From assembly GCA_025057155.1 (NCBI GenBank), contig JANWYD010000011.1, forward strand, positions 1 to 64,000: a DNA stretch of 64,000 nt. The letters run 5' to 3'. The notes under the pieces are model-generated. The model saw only the letters and a list, made by a program, of their open reading frames with translations, made no database searches and had not been told where the DNA came from. A program made the translations under genes and the position numbers. The DNA comes from Chloroflexaceae bacterium. GTDB lineage: Bacteria > Chloroflexota > Chloroflexia > Chloroflexales > Chloroflexaceae. How positions within the stretch are numbered: position 1 is the first letter of the stretch; every line of letters starts with the position of its first letter. Positions 1 through 19,811 of this stretch are shown here, one piece after another.

Positions 1-103
1 TGGCCCCCCGCGTGGGGGGGGGCTGGTGGGGGGGGTGGGGGCTGCGGCGGCTCGGGGGGGGGGGGGGGGGGGGGCCCCCCCCCCCCCCCCCCCACCCCTG
101 TTT
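1..103. other. G/C homopolymer tract at contig end (probable artefact)
   Basis: The first 100 bases are long runs of G followed by long runs of C with almost no other sequence. Normal sequence begins around position 104. This composition at the very edge of the window is more typical of sequencing or assembly error than of a genomic element, and no gene is called here. Confidence 0.75.
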
Positions 104-12588: not shown

Positions 12589-12643
12589 ACCGCAGAGGAC
12601 GCGGAGGGTGCAGAGGGTTTTCAACCGGCGCATCCTCTGCGGT
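12589..12643. repeat. ACCGCAGAGGA inverted repeat
   Basis: An 11-bp inverted repeat (ACCGCAGAGGA / TCCTCTGCGGT) encloses a 33-nt core. A related degenerate copy is at 19859-19926. Repeats of this type are common in many bacterial intergenic regions. Confidence 0.65.
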
Positions 12644-12673
12644 AAACCTCAACACCTGGCGACGACGAGCCGT

Positions 12674-12702
12674 TTGACGTCCGCGCGGAAGTGTGCTATG
12701 CT
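12674..12702 (+). promoter_or_regulatory. Promoter of the lysine biosynthesis cluster
   Basis: TTGACG at 12674-12679 and TATGCT at 12697-12702 are spaced by exactly 17 nt. The predicted start near 12709 places a short leader reading frame at the very 5' end of the transcript. Confidence 0.72.
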
Positions 12703-12726
12703 CCCGCTAGCACAATGAGGGATGAA

Positions 12727-12801
12727 ATGAGGCAAAAGATGCAGCAGCACTGCTCCAAGCAGGTCAAGCGGGCGAAGAAGCCGGCCGGAAGGTCTGGTTA
12801 G
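12727..12801 (+). CDS. Lys-rich leader peptide (putative attenuator)
   Basis: A 24-codon frame starting at an ATG with AGGG 5 nt upstream (an ATG at 12715 would add four residues). It encodes five lysines: codons at 12736, 12757, 12766 and a tandem pair at 12775-12780. Lysine is rare in proteins of this GC-rich genome. The last two sense codons and adjacent bases contain GGTCTGGT (12791-12798), which is complementary to ACCAGACC in the loop of the terminator just downstream. Its position, composition and pairing fit a leader peptide that senses charged tRNA-Lys for the lysine operon (inference). A leader-peptide attenuator for the lysine cluster has, as I recall, been described in Thermus thermophilus. 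Confidence 0.6.
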   Translation: MRQKMQQHCSKQVKRAKKPAGRSG

Positions 12802-12828
12802 CGCCGCTTGCACGCGCGGATCGAGTGT

Positions 12829-12873
12829 AGGCCCGGAGTACCAGACCAGATGGTGCGCCGGGCCTTTCGTTTT
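12829..12873 (+). terminator. Intrinsic terminator (putative lysine attenuator)
   Basis: AGGCCCGG (12829-12836) pairs with CCGGGCCT (12858-12865) and is followed by TTCGTTTT. An inner ACCA/TGGT pair extends the stem. The terminator lies between the promoter and homocitrate synthase, so it would stop transcription before the lysine genes. ACCAGACC in its loop can instead pair with GGTCTGGT at the end of the leader peptide frame. Confidence 0.68.
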
Positions 12874-12887
12874 CCCGGAGGTGCGCG

Positions 12888-13001
12888 ATGAAACTGCACG
12901 CCAGTATTCCGACCACCGTGGCCATTACTCCACGCTACTGCCGCCCGGAGCTGTTTGGCGCTTGCCAGGTGAGAGAAGGATTCTATCCCTATGCCGCTTG
13001 A
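12888..13001 (+). CDS. Possible 37-residue small protein coupled to homocitrate synthase
   Basis: An ATG preceded by a strong GGAGG (spacing 7) opens a 37-codon frame (starts MKLHASIPTT) right after the attenuator. It ends at TGA 12999-13001, overlapping the homocitrate synthase start by 11 nt. No family is recognised. The ribosome site here is far stronger than the one in front of the enzyme gene, so the frame may serve to couple translation into the enzyme, or may be a true small protein. Its coding status needs conservation or expression data. Confidence 0.4.
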   Translation: MKLHASIPTTVAITPRYCRPELFGACQVREGFYPYAA

Positions 13002-14115
13002 GCGCTTCTTTCTCCTCGACACGACTCTGCGCGAGGGCGAGCAGTTCGCCACGGCGCGCTTTACCAGCGCCCAGCGCCTGGCGGTGGCCGAGGCCCTGGA
13101 CGCCGTCGGAGTCGAGTATATTGAACTGACCTCGCCTGCCGCCTCACCCCAGAGCGCCCGCGATCTCGAAACGATCGCCAGCCGCGGGCTGCGCGCCCGC
13201 GTGGTCACTCACGTGCGTTGCCATCCCGATGACGCGCGTATGGCAGTCGAATGCGGGGCCCAGGGCGTGAATCTGCTCTACGCCACCTCCGAACCCCTGC
13301 GCCGCGCCAGTCATGGCCGTGACCTTGACCAGATTATCGCCGAAGCCGAGGTGGTGATCAGCTACCTCCGCCGGCACAACGTTGAGGTCCGCTTCTCGGC
13401 TGAAGACACCTTCCGCACCGATCTGCCCTCCCTCCTCCGCGTGTACCAGGCCGTGGCCGCGATGGGTGTGCACCGCATCGGCCTGGCGGATACGGTGGGC
13501 ATCGCCACGCCGCGGCAGGTGTATGATGTCGTGTCACAGGTGCGCGCGGCGGTAGACTGCGATATCGAGTTCCATGGCCACAATGACTCGGGTTGCGCGA
13601 TCGCCAATGCCTTCTGCGCCCTCGAAGCCGGCGCGACCCACATTGACGTCACGGTGCTGGGCATCGGCGAGCGCAACGGCATTGCCTCCCTCAGCGGCAT
13701 GATCGCCCGCCTGGCGACGCTTGACCCGGCCCTCGTATCGCGTTACAACCTGGAGCGCCTGCCCGAGCTCGACCGCATGGTGGCCGACCTGGTCGGGGTG
13801 CCGGTACCCTTCGACGCACCCATCTCCAGTCCCTTCGCTTTTCATCACAAAGCCGGTCTGCACACCAAAGCCGTGCTACGCGATCCGCGGAGCTACGAGG
13901 CGCTCGACCCGACCCTCTTTGGGCGCAGCCGCACCGTGGCCGTCGCCCATCGCCTGGTGGGCTGGCACGCTGTCGCCGAACGCGCCCGCGAGCTAGGAAT
14001 CTACCTGAGCGAGACGGCTGCTCGCCAGGCTGCTGCGCGCATCAAGGCCCTCGGCGATGAGCGCGAAATCGATAGTACGACCGTGGATGAGATTTTGTAC
14101 GAGTTTGCTGAATAA
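12991..14115 (+). CDS. lysS: Homocitrate synthase (LysW-type lysine pathway)
   Basis: A 374-residue DRE-TIM metallolyase that condenses 2-oxoglutarate with acetyl-CoA to homocitrate, the first step of alpha-aminoadipate lysine synthesis. The N-terminus has LLDTTLREGEQF (D10, R14, E15), and the metal-binding HGHND motif is at 195-199. Conserved family blocks include TSPAASPQS, RFSAEDTFR, GLADTVG and GIGERNG. Length and pattern match the Thermus-type homocitrate synthase rather than 2-isopropylmalate synthase, and the neighbours confirm the pathway. It overlaps the end of a possible small frame and lies downstream of a probable lysine attenuator. Confidence 0.93.
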   Translation: MPLERFFLLDTTLREGEQFATARFTSAQRLAVAEALDAVGVEYIELTSPAASPQSARDLETIASRGLRARVVTHVRCHPDDARMAVECGAQGVNLLYATSEPLRRASHGRDLDQIIAEAEVVISYLRRHNVEVRFSAEDTFRTDLPSLLRVYQAVAAMGVHRIGLADTVGIATPRQVYDVVSQVRAAVDCDIEFHGHNDSGCAIANAFCALEAGATHIDVTVLGIGERNGIASLSGMIARLATLDPALVSRYNLERLPELDRMVADLVGVPVPFDAPISSPFAFHHKAGLHTKAVLRDPRSYEALDPTLFGRSRTVAVAHRLVGWHAVAERARELGIYLSETAARQAAARIKALGDEREIDSTTVDEILYEFAE

Positions 14116-14238: not shown

Positions 14239-14343
14239 GCCCCGGCCCGATGGAAGTGGCAGGGAAACGTTTTCACCGCTAAGCAGGCATGGGGCGTGAC
14301 GAGCAAGCGTCGCCCGGCCTATGCCAGGTGCAACGAGGCAAGT

Positions 14344-15594
14344 ATGGCGCAAACCCTTAGTGAGCAGATCCTCTCTCGCGCGGCGGGACGTCCAGTGTCC
14401 GCGGGGGAGGTGGTAACGGTCAATGTGGACCTGGTGATGATGCACGATAGCCTGTCACCGGGGATCATCCGGGTGTTGCACGAAGAACTTGGCGCCGAGC
14501 GGGTCTGGGACCCGGAGCGGGTTGCGGTGGTGATTGACCACGTGGCCCCGGCTGCCAGCGTACAGACGGCGGAGAAGCAGGCAGAGGTGCGGCGCTGGGT
14601 GCGCGCCCAGGGCATCAAGCACCTGTTCGACGTCGGGCGGGGGATTTCCCACCCGGTGCTGGTGGAGGAGGGCCTGGCCCGCCCGGGCATGGTCATCGTG
14701 GGCAGCGATAGCCATTCGACTGCCTACGGCTGTGTGGGGGCCTTCGGTACCGGAATGGGCACCACCGATATCGCCCTGGCCGTTGCCACCGGTCGAACCT
14801 GGTTCCGCGTGCCCGAGACGGTGCTGGTGCGCGCGCGGGGACGCTTTCGTCCCGGCGTCAGCGCCAAGGATCTGGGGCTGAAGGCCGCGCGCCTGCTCCG
14901 CGCCGACGGGGCCACCTACGCTGCCGTCGAGTGGCACGGGGTCGAGTTCCTCAGCGTGATGGAGCGAATGACCCTGGCGACCCTTTCAATCGAGGTTGGC
15001 GCGAAGGCGGGCATCGTGCCTCCCACCGGGCTGTCGCAACCTGTCCCGCACTGGCTGCGCGTGGAGGAGGGCGCCTGCTACAGCCGCGTGGTTGAGATTG
15101 ACCTCGACGACCTGGAGCCGCAGGTCAGCGCGCCGCACACTGTAGACAACGTGACCGACCTGCGCGACCTGGGCCGCGTCGCGGTGGATGTGGTCTACCT
15201 GGGCACCTGCACCAACGGCCATTACGAAGACATGGCCGCCGCAGCGCGCATTCTGCGCGGGCGGCGCGTGGCGCCCGGCGTGCGGATGCTGGTGGTGCCG
15301 GCCAGCGCCCAGGCACTGCAACTGGCTGCCGAGGACGGCACCCTGGCGACCCTGCTGGCCGCCGGGGCGACCATCGGCACCCCGGGCTGCGGCGCGTGCA
15401 TCGGGCGGCATATGGGCGTGCTCGCGCCCGGCGAGGTTTGTCTGTTCACCGGCAACCGCAACTTCCGCGGGCGCATGGGCAGCCCCGAGGCCCGCATTTA
15501 CCTGGCTTCGCCGGAAGTGGCTGCCGCAACCGCGATCACAGGCTACATAACCCACCCGCAGGACGTGATTGACGCGCCCTACGACGAGCCGTGA
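14344..15594 (+). CDS. lysT: Homoaconitase large subunit
   Basis: A 416-residue aconitase-family large subunit that isomerises homocitrate to homoisocitrate with its small-subunit partner. The three 4Fe-4S ligands are visible: C289 in GTCTNG, and C349 and C352 in GCGAC. SDSHSTAYGCVGAFGTGMGTTD (about 131-152) is the substrate-binding region. Length fits archaeal/Thermus-type LeuC/LysT proteins of about 420. The start used is the ATG after GAGG (spacing about 7); upstream in-frame codons fall in repeat sequence. LeuC function cannot be excluded from this gene alone, but neighbours belong to the lysine pathway. Confidence 0.92.
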   Translation: MAQTLSEQILSRAAGRPVSAGEVVTVNVDLVMMHDSLSPGIIRVLHEELGAERVWDPERVAVVIDHVAPAASVQTAEKQAEVRRWVRAQGIKHLFDVGRGISHPVLVEEGLARPGMVIVGSDSHSTAYGCVGAFGTGMGTTDIALAVATGRTWFRVPETVLVRARGRFRPGVSAKDLGLKAARLLRADGATYAAVEWHGVEFLSVMERMTLATLSIEVGAKAGIVPPTGLSQPVPHWLRVEEGACYSRVVEIDLDDLEPQVSAPHTVDNVTDLRDLGRVAVDVVYLGTCTNGHYEDMAAAARILRGRRVAPGVRMLVVPASAQALQLAAEDGTLATLLAAGATIGTPGCGACIGRHMGVLAPGEVCLFTGNRNFRGRMGSPEARIYLASPEVAAATAITGYITHPQDVIDAPYDEP

Positions 15595-15637
15595 GCGTCG
15601 TCGGCCCGTTTACGCCTCAGGAACAGGGAGTGCATCT

Positions 15638-16135
15638 ATGGCTCGCGTCTGGTTATTTGGCGCTGACATTAATACCGATCAGATCGTTCCAGGGCGCTAT
15701 GCCCCGTATATGCTCAAGAATGAGGACGATCTGCGCAAGTACCCGTTCATCGAACATCGGCCCGACTTTGCCGCGAATGTGCGTCCGGGAGACATCATCG
15801 TGGCCGGCAACAACTTCGGCTGCGGCAGTTCTCGCGAGTACGCGCCTCTGGCGCTGCGCATGGTTGGCATTGGCGCGATCATTGCGCCACTGTTCGCCCG
15901 CATCTTCTTCCGCAATGCCCTGAATCTTGGCATCCCGTGCTTTACCGCCGATCTCACCGGCGAACTGCGCGATGGCGAGGAAGTGGAACTGGACCTGGAG
16001 CAGGGGCGCATCTATACCGGTGACGGACGCACCATCCAGTTGCCGCCGCCTCCGGCCTTCCTGCGCGAGGTCTGGGCCGCGGGGGGCATTGTGCCCTTCT
16101 ATCGGAAGTATGGGCGGTTTCCCGGCGAGGGCTGA
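15638..16135 (+). CDS. lysU: Homoaconitase small subunit
   Basis: A 165-residue swivel-domain subunit with DINTDQIVPGRY near the N-terminus and GNNFGCGSSREYAPLAL around residues 53-69, the hallmark of LeuD/LysU proteins. The loop after TDQI is YAPYMLKN, which fits the short homoaconitase/isopropylmalate group. GGGAG precedes the ATG by 7 nt. It directly follows the large subunit. Its stop codon TGA forms the left edge of a 142-bp inverted-repeat element. Confidence 0.92.
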   Translation: MARVWLFGADINTDQIVPGRYAPYMLKNEDDLRKYPFIEHRPDFAANVRPGDIIVAGNNFGCGSSREYAPLALRMVGIGAIIAPLFARIFFRNALNLGIPCFTADLTGELRDGEEVELDLEQGRIYTGDGRTIQLPPPPAFLREVWAAGGIVPFYRKYGRFPGEG

Positions 16136-16276
16136 GTAGTGTGTGAACGAAGTTTTTGGCTAAACGCATCCCCTCCCCAACCCTCCCCCGCAGGGGAGGG
16201 CGCCTGGCGCTTCCCTCAACGGGGGGAGGCTGGGAAAGGGGGCGAAAAGGCGAGGAAACTTGCTTCACAGACTACT
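16135..16276. mobile_element. 142-bp terminal-inverted-repeat element (MITE-like), copy 1
   Basis: The left end AGTAGTGTGTGAACGAAGTT and the right end, read in reverse complement (AGTAGTCTGTGAAGCAAGTT), form imperfect 20-bp terminal inverted repeats. The core has CCCTCCCC-rich stem sequences also present in copy 3 (42031-42170). No reading frame is expected. It starts at the stop codon of the preceding gene inside the lysine operon. Confidence 0.65.
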
Positions 16277-16291
16277 GAGTGGCCGGAGGGT

Positions 16292-16314
16292 TGGGAAAAG
16301 TCGGTTTCCCCAGG
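16292..16314. repeat. Palindromic repeat followed by GCAACCC hairpin
   Basis: TTGGGAAAAGTCGG then TTTCCCCA belongs to the main repeat family. It is followed by a perfect hairpin at 16317-16339 (GGCGCAACCC / GGGTTGCGCC, 3-nt loop) ending 20 nt before the next start codon. Confidence 0.65.
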
Positions 16315-16359
16315 TGGGCGCAACCCGGAGGGTTGCGCCTGTAACCCAGGAATGATGGA

Positions 16360-17361
16360 ATGCACATCTGCGTCATTCCCGGAGACGGGATCGGCCCGGA
16401 AGTGATCGGCGCGGCCACAGAGGTGCTGCGCGCCCTGGCGCCCGATGTGGCGATCACCAGGGCCGAGGCGGGTTGGGGCGCCTTCGAGCGGCACGGCGTG
16501 GCGTTGCCCGCGGTGACGCTGGCGGCAGCGCGGGCCGCCGACGCCATTCTCTTCGGCGCGGTTGCCTCCCCCAGCCACGCCGTGCCCGGCTACCGCAGCC
16601 CCATCGTGCAACTGCGCCGGGACCTCGACCTCTATGCCAACATTCGCCCTGTCAGCGGAACTGCCGCAGGGCAGCCGGTCGACCTGGTCATCGTTCGCGA
16701 GAACACTGAAGATCTCTACGTCGGGCGCGAGCGCCTCGAGGACGACGGGGCCAAGGCCATTGCCGAGCGGGTCATCACCCGGCGGGCCAGCGCGCGCATC
16801 GCTCGCGCCGCCTTCGACCTGGCCCGCCGCCGCGCCGCCGATCTCGGGCGGCCCGCGCGGGTGACAGTGGTCCACAAGGCTAACGTCCTGCGCCTCAGTG
16901 ATGGTCTCTTCCGCGAGACGGTGCTGGAGGCGGCTCGCGACTACCCCGAGGTGGTCGTAGAGGAGATGCTGGTAGACGTGGCGGCGATGCGCCTTGCCCA
17001 GACGCCCGAACGGTTCGATGTGCTGGTCACCACCAACATGTTCGGCGACATCCTCTCCGATGTGGCCTGCATCCACGGCGGCGGGTTGGGCCTGGCCGCC
17101 TCGGTGAACCTGGGCGACGCACAGGCCCTGTTTGAACCGGTGCACGGCTCGGCCCCGGATATTGCCGGCCAGGGAACGGCCAACCCCCTAGCCGCGATTA
17201 CCTGTGTGGCGCTGCTGCTAGAATGGCGCGGTCTGAGCCTGCCCGCGGCGCGCCTGCGGGCCGCCATCGCTACCGTGCTGCGCGATGGCCCCCGCACGCC
17301 TGACCTGGGCGGCGCAGCCGGGACCGCCGATGTTACCGAGGCCGTGCTTGCGCGACTGTGA
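16360..17361 (+). CDS. hicd: Homoisocitrate dehydrogenase
   Basis: A 333-residue beta-decarboxylating dehydrogenase that oxidises homoisocitrate to 2-oxoadipate with NAD. It has ICVIPGDGIGPEV at the N-terminus, RRDLDLYANIRP at about 87-98, the catalytic region VIVRENTEDLY, and GSAPDIAGQGTANP near 265-280. The substrate-helix segment VPGYRSPIVQLRR differs from the LeuB and Icd patterns and resembles Thermus homoisocitrate dehydrogenase, as does the length. It supplies the keto acid that is transaminated to alpha-aminoadipate; no dedicated aminotransferase lies in this cluster. Confidence 0.9.
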   Translation: MHICVIPGDGIGPEVIGAATEVLRALAPDVAITRAEAGWGAFERHGVALPAVTLAAARAADAILFGAVASPSHAVPGYRSPIVQLRRDLDLYANIRPVSGTAAGQPVDLVIVRENTEDLYVGRERLEDDGAKAIAERVITRRASARIARAAFDLARRRAADLGRPARVTVVHKANVLRLSDGLFRETVLEAARDYPEVVVEEMLVDVAAMRLAQTPERFDVLVTTNMFGDILSDVACIHGGGLGLAASVNLGDAQALFEPVHGSAPDIAGQGTANPLAAITCVALLLEWRGLSLPAARLRAAIATVLRDGPRTPDLGGAAGTADVTEAVLARL

Positions 17362-17416
17362 TCCGTGTTGTTTCTGGGAGGGCTTCGTCCGCGCAGACCC
17401 TGCCAGCGAGCAGCGG

Positions 17417-17443
17417 GTGCGGGAAAACCTGGTCTCCCCGCAC
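17417..17443. repeat. GGGGAAACC-type palindromic repeat
   Basis: GTGCGGGAAAACCTGG then TCTCCCCGCAC, between homoisocitrate dehydrogenase and lysW. A GGGAGGGCTTCG half-module precedes it at 17376. Confidence 0.7.
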
Positions 17444-17478
17444 CTCTCCGGAGAACCGAAACGAAAGGAGTTCCCGCT

Positions 17479-17646
17479 ATGATCGCCACCTGTCCCGAAT
17501 GCGGCGCCGAAATCACCCTGCCTGACGATACTATGGAAAGCGAAATCATCGTCTGTCCCGAATGCGGCGCTGAACTGGAAGTTGTGAGCCTGAACCCGCC
17601 CACCCTGGCCCTCGCCCCCGAGGTCGAGGAGGACTGGGGCGAATAG
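17479..17646 (+). CDS. lysW: LysW amino-group carrier protein
   Basis: A 55-residue acidic carrier. Two CPECG knuckles (C5, C8, C26, C29) bind zinc, and the C-terminus is the diagnostic EDWGE, whose last glutamate gamma-carboxyl is linked to alpha-aminoadipate during lysine synthesis. The ATG is preceded by AGGAG at 8 nt; a longer in-frame reading would only add repeat-derived residues. It sits 11 nt before its ligase gene lysX. Recognition is firm because size, zinc motifs and tail all match. Confidence 0.96.
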
Positions 17647-17657
17647 AGGAGCGATGT

Positions 17658-18512
17658 ATGCGTATCGGTGTGCTCTGCTCGCGCATCCGCGCCGAGGAGA
17701 AACTGCTCTTTACCGAACTGGAGCGTCGCGGTCTGGATTACGAGAAGGTTGACGACCGCGAGCAGATCTTTAACCTGCACCAGCGCGAATACCCTTTCGA
17801 CGTGGTGCTGGAGCGCTCGATCCAGCACAGCCGGGCGCTATACATGCTCAAGATCTTGAACGATGCCGGGGTTCCGACGGTCAATAGCTACCACGTGGCG
17901 CTGACCTGCGGCGACAAGCTCCTAACCACCCAGGCCCTGGTGCACGCCGGGGTGCCGACGCCGCGCTGCCTGCTGGCCTTTACCCCCGAAAGTGCGCTGG
18001 AAGCAATGGAGCAACTCGGCTATCCCGTCGTGCTCAAGCCGGTGATTGGCTCCTGGGGACGCATGGTGAGCAAGATCAACGACCGTGACGCCGCTGAGGC
18101 CATCCTCGAACACCGCGATGTACTTGGCAACTACCAGCACTCGATTTTCTACATCCAGGAGTACATTCATAAGCCAGGGCGCGACATTCGCTCGTTTGTT
18201 ATTGGCGATGAGTGCATCGCCGCGATCTATCGCACCAGCGAGCACTGGATCACCAATACCGCCCGTGGCGGCATAGCCAGCCAGTGTCCTGTCACTCCCG
18301 AACTGGCCGACCTGAGCATTCGCGCGGCCCGCGCCGTGGGCGGCGGGGCGGTGGCGATTGACCTGCTCGAGACACGCGACGGGCGCGTGCTGGTGAATGA
18401 GGTCAACTACACGATGGAGTTCCGCAACTCGATCGAGACCACCGGCGTGAACATCCCGGCGCGGATCATTGATTATGTGCTGGAAGTGGGCCACAAGGGG
18501 ATGACGAGGTGA
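17658..18512 (+). CDS. lysX: LysX, alpha-aminoadipate-LysW ligase
   Basis: A 284-residue ATP-grasp enzyme of the RimK/LysX group that joins the LysW C-terminal glutamate to the amino group of alpha-aminoadipate. The N-terminal domain starts [17 protein letters not shown]. The ATP-grasp part has [15 protein letters not shown] (about 115-130), the segment FIQEYIH-like [18 protein letters not shown], and metal-binding [14 protein letters not shown] near 250-263. GAGGAG lies close to the ATG. ArgX is a close relative, so dual use for ornithine synthesis is possible, but the lysine genes beside it favour LysX. Confidence 0.93.
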
Positions 18513-18773: not shown

Positions 18774-19811
18774 ATGAGCATCCGCGTTTCTGTCGTGGGC
18801 GCCAGCGGCTACGTCGGGGGCGAGTTGTTGCGGCTCCTGCTATGGCACCCCGCAGTGGAAGTGGCGCAGGCCACCAGTGGGCGCAATGCCGGGCGCTATC
18901 TCTACCAGGTGCATCCCAATCTGCGCGGGCGGACGAGCCTGCAATTCGTGCATCCCGACCGGTTGGAATCCTGCGACGTGTTATTTCTGGCCCTGCCCCA
19001 CGGTGAGGCGGCGCGCAGCTTCGCCCGCTACGAAGGGTTGGCCGAGCGGATCATAGATTGTTCTGCCGACTTCCGGCTGCGCGACCCGGCGGTCTACCGC
19101 CACTGGTATGGAGAAGAGCATCCTGCTCCGGAGTGGCTCGACCGCTTTGTGTACGGCTTGCCCGAGGTCAGCCGTGCAGCCCTGCGCGAAGCGCGCTACG
19201 CCAGCGGCGTGGGCTGCAACGCTACGGCCACCAACCTGGCTCTGCTCCCGCTGGTGCGGGCCGAGCTGGTGGACCCGAACCAGCCGGTGATCGTTGAAGT
19301 CAAGGTCGGCTCGTCCGAAGGCGGGGCCAGCGTTTCGGAGAGCAGCCACCATCCCGAACGGGCCGGCGCGGTGCGCTCCTTTGCTCCGGTGGGCCATCGC
19401 CACACCGCGGAGGTCGAGCAGGTGACCGGCTTGCACAACGTCCACATGTCCATCACCTCGGTGGAACTGGTGCGGGGCGCTCTGGCAACGGCGCACATCT
19501 TCACCAGCCGCCCGGTGACGGAGAAAGATCTGTGGCACGTCTACCGCGCCTTTGCCCGCGATGAGCCGTTCGTGCGCATCGTCAAGGAGCGGCAGGGGAT
19601 CTATCGTTTCCCCGAGCCCAAGATCCTTGCCGGCAGCAACTATGCCGACATTGGCTTCGCCCTCGATGCCTCCACGGGCCGGGTGGTAAGCATCTGCGCG
19701 CTGGACAATCTGATGAAAGGCGCCGCCGGGAGCGCGGTGCAGTGTATGAACCTCATGCTCGGCCTCGATGAAACCGCGGGATTGGAGTTTCCAGGATTGC
19801 ATCCGGTATAG
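18774..19811 (+). CDS. lysY: LysY/ArgC-type LysW-aminoadipyl phosphate reductase
   Basis: A 345-residue NADPH-dependent reductase that would reduce LysW-bound aminoadipyl phosphate to the semialdehyde. The Rossmann motif VGASGYVGGELLR is at the N-terminus, and the catalytic cysteine is C148 in ASGVGCNATATNL. The HxS-type region SESSHHPERAG and the PVGHRHTAEVEQ segment fit LysY/ArgC. AGGAGG precedes the ATG by 6 nt and lies in a CACCTCCAC microrepeat. From sequence alone ArgC and LysY are hard to separate; position after lysX supports LysY. The kinase LysZ, aminotransferase LysJ and hydrolase LysK are not in the window. Confidence 0.88.
   Translation: MSIRVSVVGASGYVGGELLRLLLWHPAVEVAQATSGRNAGRYLYQVHPNLRGRTSLQFVHPDRLESCDVLFLALPHGEAARSFARYEGLAERIIDCSADFRLRDPAVYRHWYGEEHPAPEWLDRFVYGLPEVSRAALREARYASGVGCNATATNLALLPLVRAELVDPNQPVIVEVKVGSSEGGASVSESSHHPERAGAVRSFAPVGHRHTAEVEQVTGLHNVHMSITSVELVRGALATAHIFTSRPVTEKDLWHVYRAFARDEPFVRIVKERQGIYRFPEPKILAGSNYADIGFALDASTGRVVSICALDNLMKGAAGSAVQCMNLMLGLDETAGLEFPGLHPV

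Follow-up and report, generated by a model that had tools for sequence, protein, structure and literature searches.

The LysW-type lysine biosynthesis genes of this Chloroflexaceae bacterium are very probably preceded by a ribosome-mediated transcription attenuator of the classical type, which senses charged tRNA-Lys (probability about 0.91). Conserved lysine codons in a short leader frame, mutually exclusive RNA hairpins, a fitting ribosome geometry and an arginine-coded twin ahead of argG together argue for lysine-specific attenuation. The lysine genes would very probably be transcribed only when charged tRNA-Lys is short, as judged from sequence comparison and folding models. The leader lies directly 5' of the LysW-type cluster in the window (the whole 64,000-nucleotide stretch analyzed; Table 1). 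An argC/lysY-type gene follows LysX at a distance of about 260 nt and may belong to the same operon.

Homocitrate synthase (HCS) genes were located in genomes of the same order, and the DNA upstream of them was compared. These genomes belong to four families: f1, which contains the genome of the window and includes Chloroploca, Viridilinea and Oscillochloris, and f2, f3 and f4. One genome (G004) has neither a leader match nor an HCS match. It was not accepted as a loss, because its LysX lies 3.7 kb into the contig, less than the distance between LysX and the leader in the window.

Table 1. Features of the lysine leader region, the genes that follow it and the arginine twin of the same genome.
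Feature	Coordinates	Strand	Basis
Sigma-70-type promoter, extended -10: -35 TTGACG (12674-12679), 17-nt spacer, -10 TATGCT (12697-12702) with TG ahead of it	12674..12702	+	sequence; motif kept in relatives
Lys leader peptide MQQHCSKQVKRAKKPAGRSG, then stop	12739..12801	+	Lys-rich frame in 42/42 relatives
Tandem Lys codons AAG AAG, proposed stall site	12775..12780	+	sequence; codon alignment
Region 1 (AGCCGGCC), possible protector strand, partner 12792-12799	12779..12786	+	90% of cells paired, 30 sequences
Region 2 (GGTCTGGT), antiterminator 5' strand, last leader codons	12791..12798	+	sequence
Inner antiterminator stem GCTTGCAC (12806-12813) : GTGTAGGC (12825-12832)	12806..12832	+	alignment, folding
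Intrinsic terminator hairpin AGGCCCGGAGTACCAGACCAGATGGTGCGCCGGGCCT + TTCGTTTT, dG -27.0; arms AGGCCCGG (12829-12836) and CCGGGCCT (12858-12865), then TTCGTTTT	12829..12873	+	folding; covariation
Region 3 (ACCAGACC), partner of region 2; terminator upper stem/loop	12840..12847	+	sequence
sORF2 MKLHASIPTTVAITPRYCRPELFGACQVREGFYPYAA, then stop; 37 codons	12888..13001	+	conservation, pN/pS
Homocitrate synthase (HCS)	12991..14115	+	TIGR02146 above cut-off
Homoaconitase large and small subunits, isopropylmalate/homoisocitrate-type dehydrogenase, LysW, LysX	14335..18512	+	family match
LysW	17479-17646	+	family match
LysX	17658-18512	+	family match
argC/lysY-type N-acetyl-gamma-glutamyl-phosphate reductase	18774..19811	+	family match
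Arg twin of the same genome (L142), leader ending in HRRRFRRQPAPRPG, then stop	G000:C13:56204-56295		R1 match

The leader peptide and its alternative hairpins

The near-ideal promoter described in the first-pass annotation (TTGACG-17-TATGCT) is present, and the pattern TTGAC-15..19-T[AG]NNNT occurs in all 41 testable upstream regions of the order compared with 18 of 820 shuffled sequences. Transcripts would start just 3' of position 12702, and only about 130 nt separate the -10 element from the terminator.

The leader frame closes with AAG AAG CCG GCC GGA AGG TCT GGT TAG, its stop codon being at 12799-12801. It had been annotated as 24 codons with five lysines. The frame is indeed open from the ATG at 12727 and does contain the tandem lysines, but the relatives favor a frame of 20 codons and four lysines that begins at the third ATG, 12739. 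This start is likely because a relative (G002) has no in-frame ATG further 5' and most other leaders begin near there; the in-frame ATGs at 12715 and 12727 are not conserved. Such clustering exceeds chance: lysine accounts for 2.1% of the codons in 11 window genes, and of the 1896 open stretches of 13 codons preceding a stop in the window, only 3 contain three or more lysines including a KK pair.

A Lys-rich frame, predicted to be translated, precedes the terminator in all 42 upstream regions of the order that reach far enough, so that codons for the product of the operon are clustered in a short leader throughout. L025, which is cut by its contig end, lies outside this count, and the frames of four f2 loci (L101-L104, e.g., MSDVSIQLNSKKSASKKSRTIASG followed by a stop) were assigned by eye. 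The leaders share the C-terminus KQxKRxKKPxxxSG-stop or a variant of it and contain on average 3.8 lysines and 1.8 arginines. The pN/pS ratio of the Lys part is lowest in the leader frame (0.40, against 1.12 and 0.77 in the other frames). TCT and GGT at the leader end are nearly invariant among relatives despite their rarity in window genes (3% of serine and 7% of glycine codons, respectively), as a constraint on the RNA would predict.

The intrinsic terminator and T-run, also recognized at the first pass, lie between the leader and the first gene and are kept in all 43 upstream regions of the order; 42 were called automatically and one (L019), with a weak T tail, by eye. Its covariation score and its number of cells changed on both sides were reached by none of 500 shuffles. 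The alignment of related spacers that had been proposed as a check on the attenuator recovered both the lysine codons and a covarying stem. In one genus, five genomes have only a weak T tail 3' of the terminator, which counts against an attenuator.

GGTCTGGT, at the end of the leader, is the exact reverse complement of ACCAGACC. An 8-nt complement is weak by itself in a single sequence (p ~0.04 in the window), and it is conservation, not the lone complement, that decides whether the element is real. The pairing, predicted at the first pass, is kept, with 94% of cells paired, but it is only part of a longer antiterminator: the two strands form the outer helix that closes a hairpin with an inner stem. 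The 3' strand of the inner stem holds the AGGC of the terminator 5' arm and so overlaps the terminator. Taken together, the outer and inner helices show pairing in 87% of cells; sliding the partner lowers this to 20-44%. The covariation score of the antiterminator was reached by 10 of 500 shuffles in an alignment in which MAFFT shifts the inner stem of one lineage by one base. Per-sequence folding was added because this slip, in a Chloroflexus-like genus, spoils a plain column count. In this genus (g9) the inner stem reads CTTGTCT:AGACAAG in place of GCTTGCAC:GTGTAGGC, and in several f3 genomes it consists of GTTTATTG:CAATAAAC stacked on AGTCT:AGGCT.

The strand up to the terminator 3' arm folds into one long hairpin in nearly every genome, with mean z values of -3.7 (f1), -4.2 (f2) and -2.4 (f3). 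Its mean energy in f1, f2 and f3 is -29, -25 and -20 kcal/mol, and falls to -7, -4 and -4 kcal/mol when the footprint of a ribosome at the stop codon is left out. In the folding model the mean terminator probability is 0.57 (f1), 0.23 (f2) and 0.29 (f3) with a stalled ribosome and 0.97, 0.97 and 0.96 with a ribosome at the stop. The antiterminator is thus predicted to exclude the terminator and to be hidden once a ribosome occupies the leader stop codon. The equilibrium terminator probability of the window's own sequence is 0.95 even in the stalled state, which counts against a switch; we infer that switching there would have to depend on the antiterminator folding first.

A protector hairpin formed by the Lys-Lys-Pro codons and the leader end is possible. 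The Lys-Pro codons supply AGCCGG(C/A)C, which complements the leader-end GTCTGGTT in most relatives, and five of the pairs fall within the RNAalifold consensus from which the covariance model R1 (below) was made. No covariation of this helix was found over 30 sequences, despite the pairing listed in Table 1. In five of six f2 genomes GCCGG(A/G)CC is kept in a different reading frame (AGC CGG ACC or GGC CGG ACC), a hint that the RNA itself is under selection.

These features suggest the following course of events. RNA polymerase would be trailed by a ribosome translating the 20-codon leader. With ample Lys-tRNA, the ribosome would run on to the stop codon, where it would mask GGTCTGGT together with the first bases of the inner stem; the terminator (12829-12865) would then fold, and transcription would end before the lysine genes. 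With scarce Lys-tRNA, the ribosome would stall on the lysine codons; with either tandem codon in the A site, region 1 would be covered and region 2 free. GGTCTGGT could then pair with ACCAGACC around the inner stem, which would tie up the 5' arm and loop of the terminator and permit readthrough. If the leader is not translated, region 1 may sequester region 2, making termination the default. The opposed roles given at the first pass to a ribosome stalled on the lysines and one at the stop are supported by the kept lysine codons, the exclusive hairpins, the footprint geometry and the folding calculations.

Attenuation of the enterobacterial trp, his and leu operons is similar in its leader rich in the regulatory amino acid, its antiterminator set against an intrinsic terminator, its stop codon placed to mask region 2 and its possible protector hairpin. 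In the element described here, by contrast, the final codons of the leader contain region 2, the antiterminator is a single extended hairpin that encloses an inner stem, and the residue sensed would be lysine; the phylum also differs.

A second small frame before homocitrate synthase

Between the terminator and HCS lies a second small frame, sORF2, with GGAGG six bases 5' of its ATG. Its 3' end overlaps the HCS start by 11 nt, and the overlap of stop and start is found in the genomes that have sORF2. Because of this overlap sORF2 is likely to be translationally coupled to HCS. Counterparts are present in all but two of the HCS-bearing relatives examined (L027 and L112), as a single copy per genome with a match. 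The motif is TPRxCRPELFGxCQVR; RPEL(F/Y) occurs in 34 counterparts, and the f2 frames are divergent. The core in f1 has a pN/pS of 0.19 in frame, whereas the two remaining frames give 1.43 and 2.83, showing that the peptide is under selection. In G002 (locus L002, G002:C68) the aligned ATG is followed at once by TAA, and the remaining frame is intact. The frame was not found at f4 loci or distant HCS loci, and the peptide matched no family in Pfam or NCBIfam.

Translation of sORF2, or stalling by its nascent peptide, might govern the translation of HCS, as an addition to attenuation and not as a replacement. Selection at the peptide level and the overlapping stop make such control conceivable, but L027 and L112 have HCS without the frame and the f2 versions diverge, and we regard it as unlikely.

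Arginine-coded twins of the leader

R1, a covariance model derived from the Lys leaders of f1, matches in 54 of 61 genomes. The strong matches inspected lie before lysine genes; the gene is HCS or, in f4, homoaconitase, which there follows directly (L137, L139 and L141). One exception is L140 (G039:C23), where a Lys leader attenuator precedes genes for a membrane protein resembling LysE, presumed to be an exporter, and for a PLP enzyme; that genome has no LysX match and no close HCS.

Second matches are weaker; several genomes have them at E 1e-9 to 1e-4. They lie before the argininosuccinate synthase gene argG and, at L147, before a short operon with argJ, both genes being identified from their translated sequences. 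Two further matches, L149 and L150, are chance-like. The twins (L142-L148, L151 and L152-L178), found in the same order, share the covariance-model scaffold, the (S/P)G-stop ending and the terminator of the Lys leader, and differ in having arginine codons where it has lysine codons; the leader at L143, for example, is MTMLRFRRRTQPDDPSG followed by a stop. An Arg leader with terminator is present in 22 of 30 argG upstream regions (30 genomes), and Arg leaders contain on average 4.8 arginines and 0.14 lysines over the last 16 codons. The antiterminator signal of the twin in the window's own genome is weaker (z -1.1). By its codons, the twin is a natural control for amino-acid specificity.

The twins also bear on whether the terminator is unregulated, or regulated in some other way, the Lys-rich frame being due to chance or encoding a purely basic peptide. 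The p value of the lone complement would allow this, but it accords poorly with a leader kept in 42 of 42 regions, the low pN/pS of its Lys part, alternative stems kept by pairing and an arginine counterpart matched to its own pathway; we consider it very improbable. Attenuation by a lysine-coded leader is the reading that accommodates these observations. A broader proposal, that a duplicated attenuator had its sensor codons swapped (Lys for the LysW-type genes, Arg for argG/argJ) and that HCS is under a second, peptide-specific control in which the RPELFG micropeptide is either a regulatory nascent peptide or the enzyme's partner, is put forward tentatively and is rather doubtful.

Related leaders outside the order

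The element had been described as a possible Chloroflexota version of the control known from Thermus. It is indeed found in Chloroflexota, but not as a single case: it extends through the whole order, and related forms are present in Anaerolineae, Acidobacteriota and a Deinococcus. Lys leaders with terminators precede HCS in Anaerolineae metagenome-assembled genomes (MAGs). R1 matches at the expected places in L075, L079, L064, L085 and L078 (E 6e-5 to 0.016). The leader-terminator complements of L075 and L078 span 7-12 bp. Both loci have tandem Lys attenuators before HCS (L075, 2732-2954; L078, ~650-886), as does L064 (1-231), where the contig end truncates the first one. Two Acidobacteriota loci (L060 and L061) have a Lys leader and terminator before HCS with a 9-bp complement. 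A Deinococcus plasmid (L116), the one Deinococcota sequence in the comparison, has the leader MTALATASKKPTAPPG, ending in a stop, and a terminator before HCS; its simple leader-terminator complement is short. R1 gave no significant match to the Acidobacteriota and Deinococcus leaders. Lys-containing frames at L059 and L082 have no leader-terminator complement and were rejected as attenuators.

In other Chloroflexi MAGs HCS is preceded by a T-box (L046, 2709-2970; RF00230, E 2e-17, scoring 78 bits where the gathering score is 93). It precedes the same gene and presumably senses tRNA charging, but by direct tRNA binding and with no leader peptide. Despite this precedent, it is scarcely credible that direct sensing of lysine or tRNA in the window falls to a lysine riboswitch (L box), a T-box or some other described RNA, the leader frame being incidental, given that 12600-13100 has no Rfam match even at E<=5 (neither the RF00230 T-box nor the lysine riboswitch model), that a scan of the whole window returned tRNAs only, that the interval between the -10 element and the terminator is so short, and that lysine codons occur in every relative and arginine codons instead before argG.

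To our knowledge, leader-peptide attenuation of the LysW-type lysine pathway has been reported for Thermus only; in Thermus thermophilus a Lys-coded leader before HCS of the LysW-type cluster reportedly acts in this way (Tsubouchi et al. 2005), as proposed here. A literature search found no lysine or arginine attenuator in Chloroflexota. The lysine attenuator would be an ordinary mechanism in a new place. Its extension to an entire order and beyond opens the age and spread of such control to study. The RPELFG micropeptide is a conserved, unannotated gene product at the first enzyme of the lysine pathway. The Lys and Arg twins would provide a natural example of a single RNA switch redirected through a change of codons, just as the lysine and arginine pathways are themselves related.
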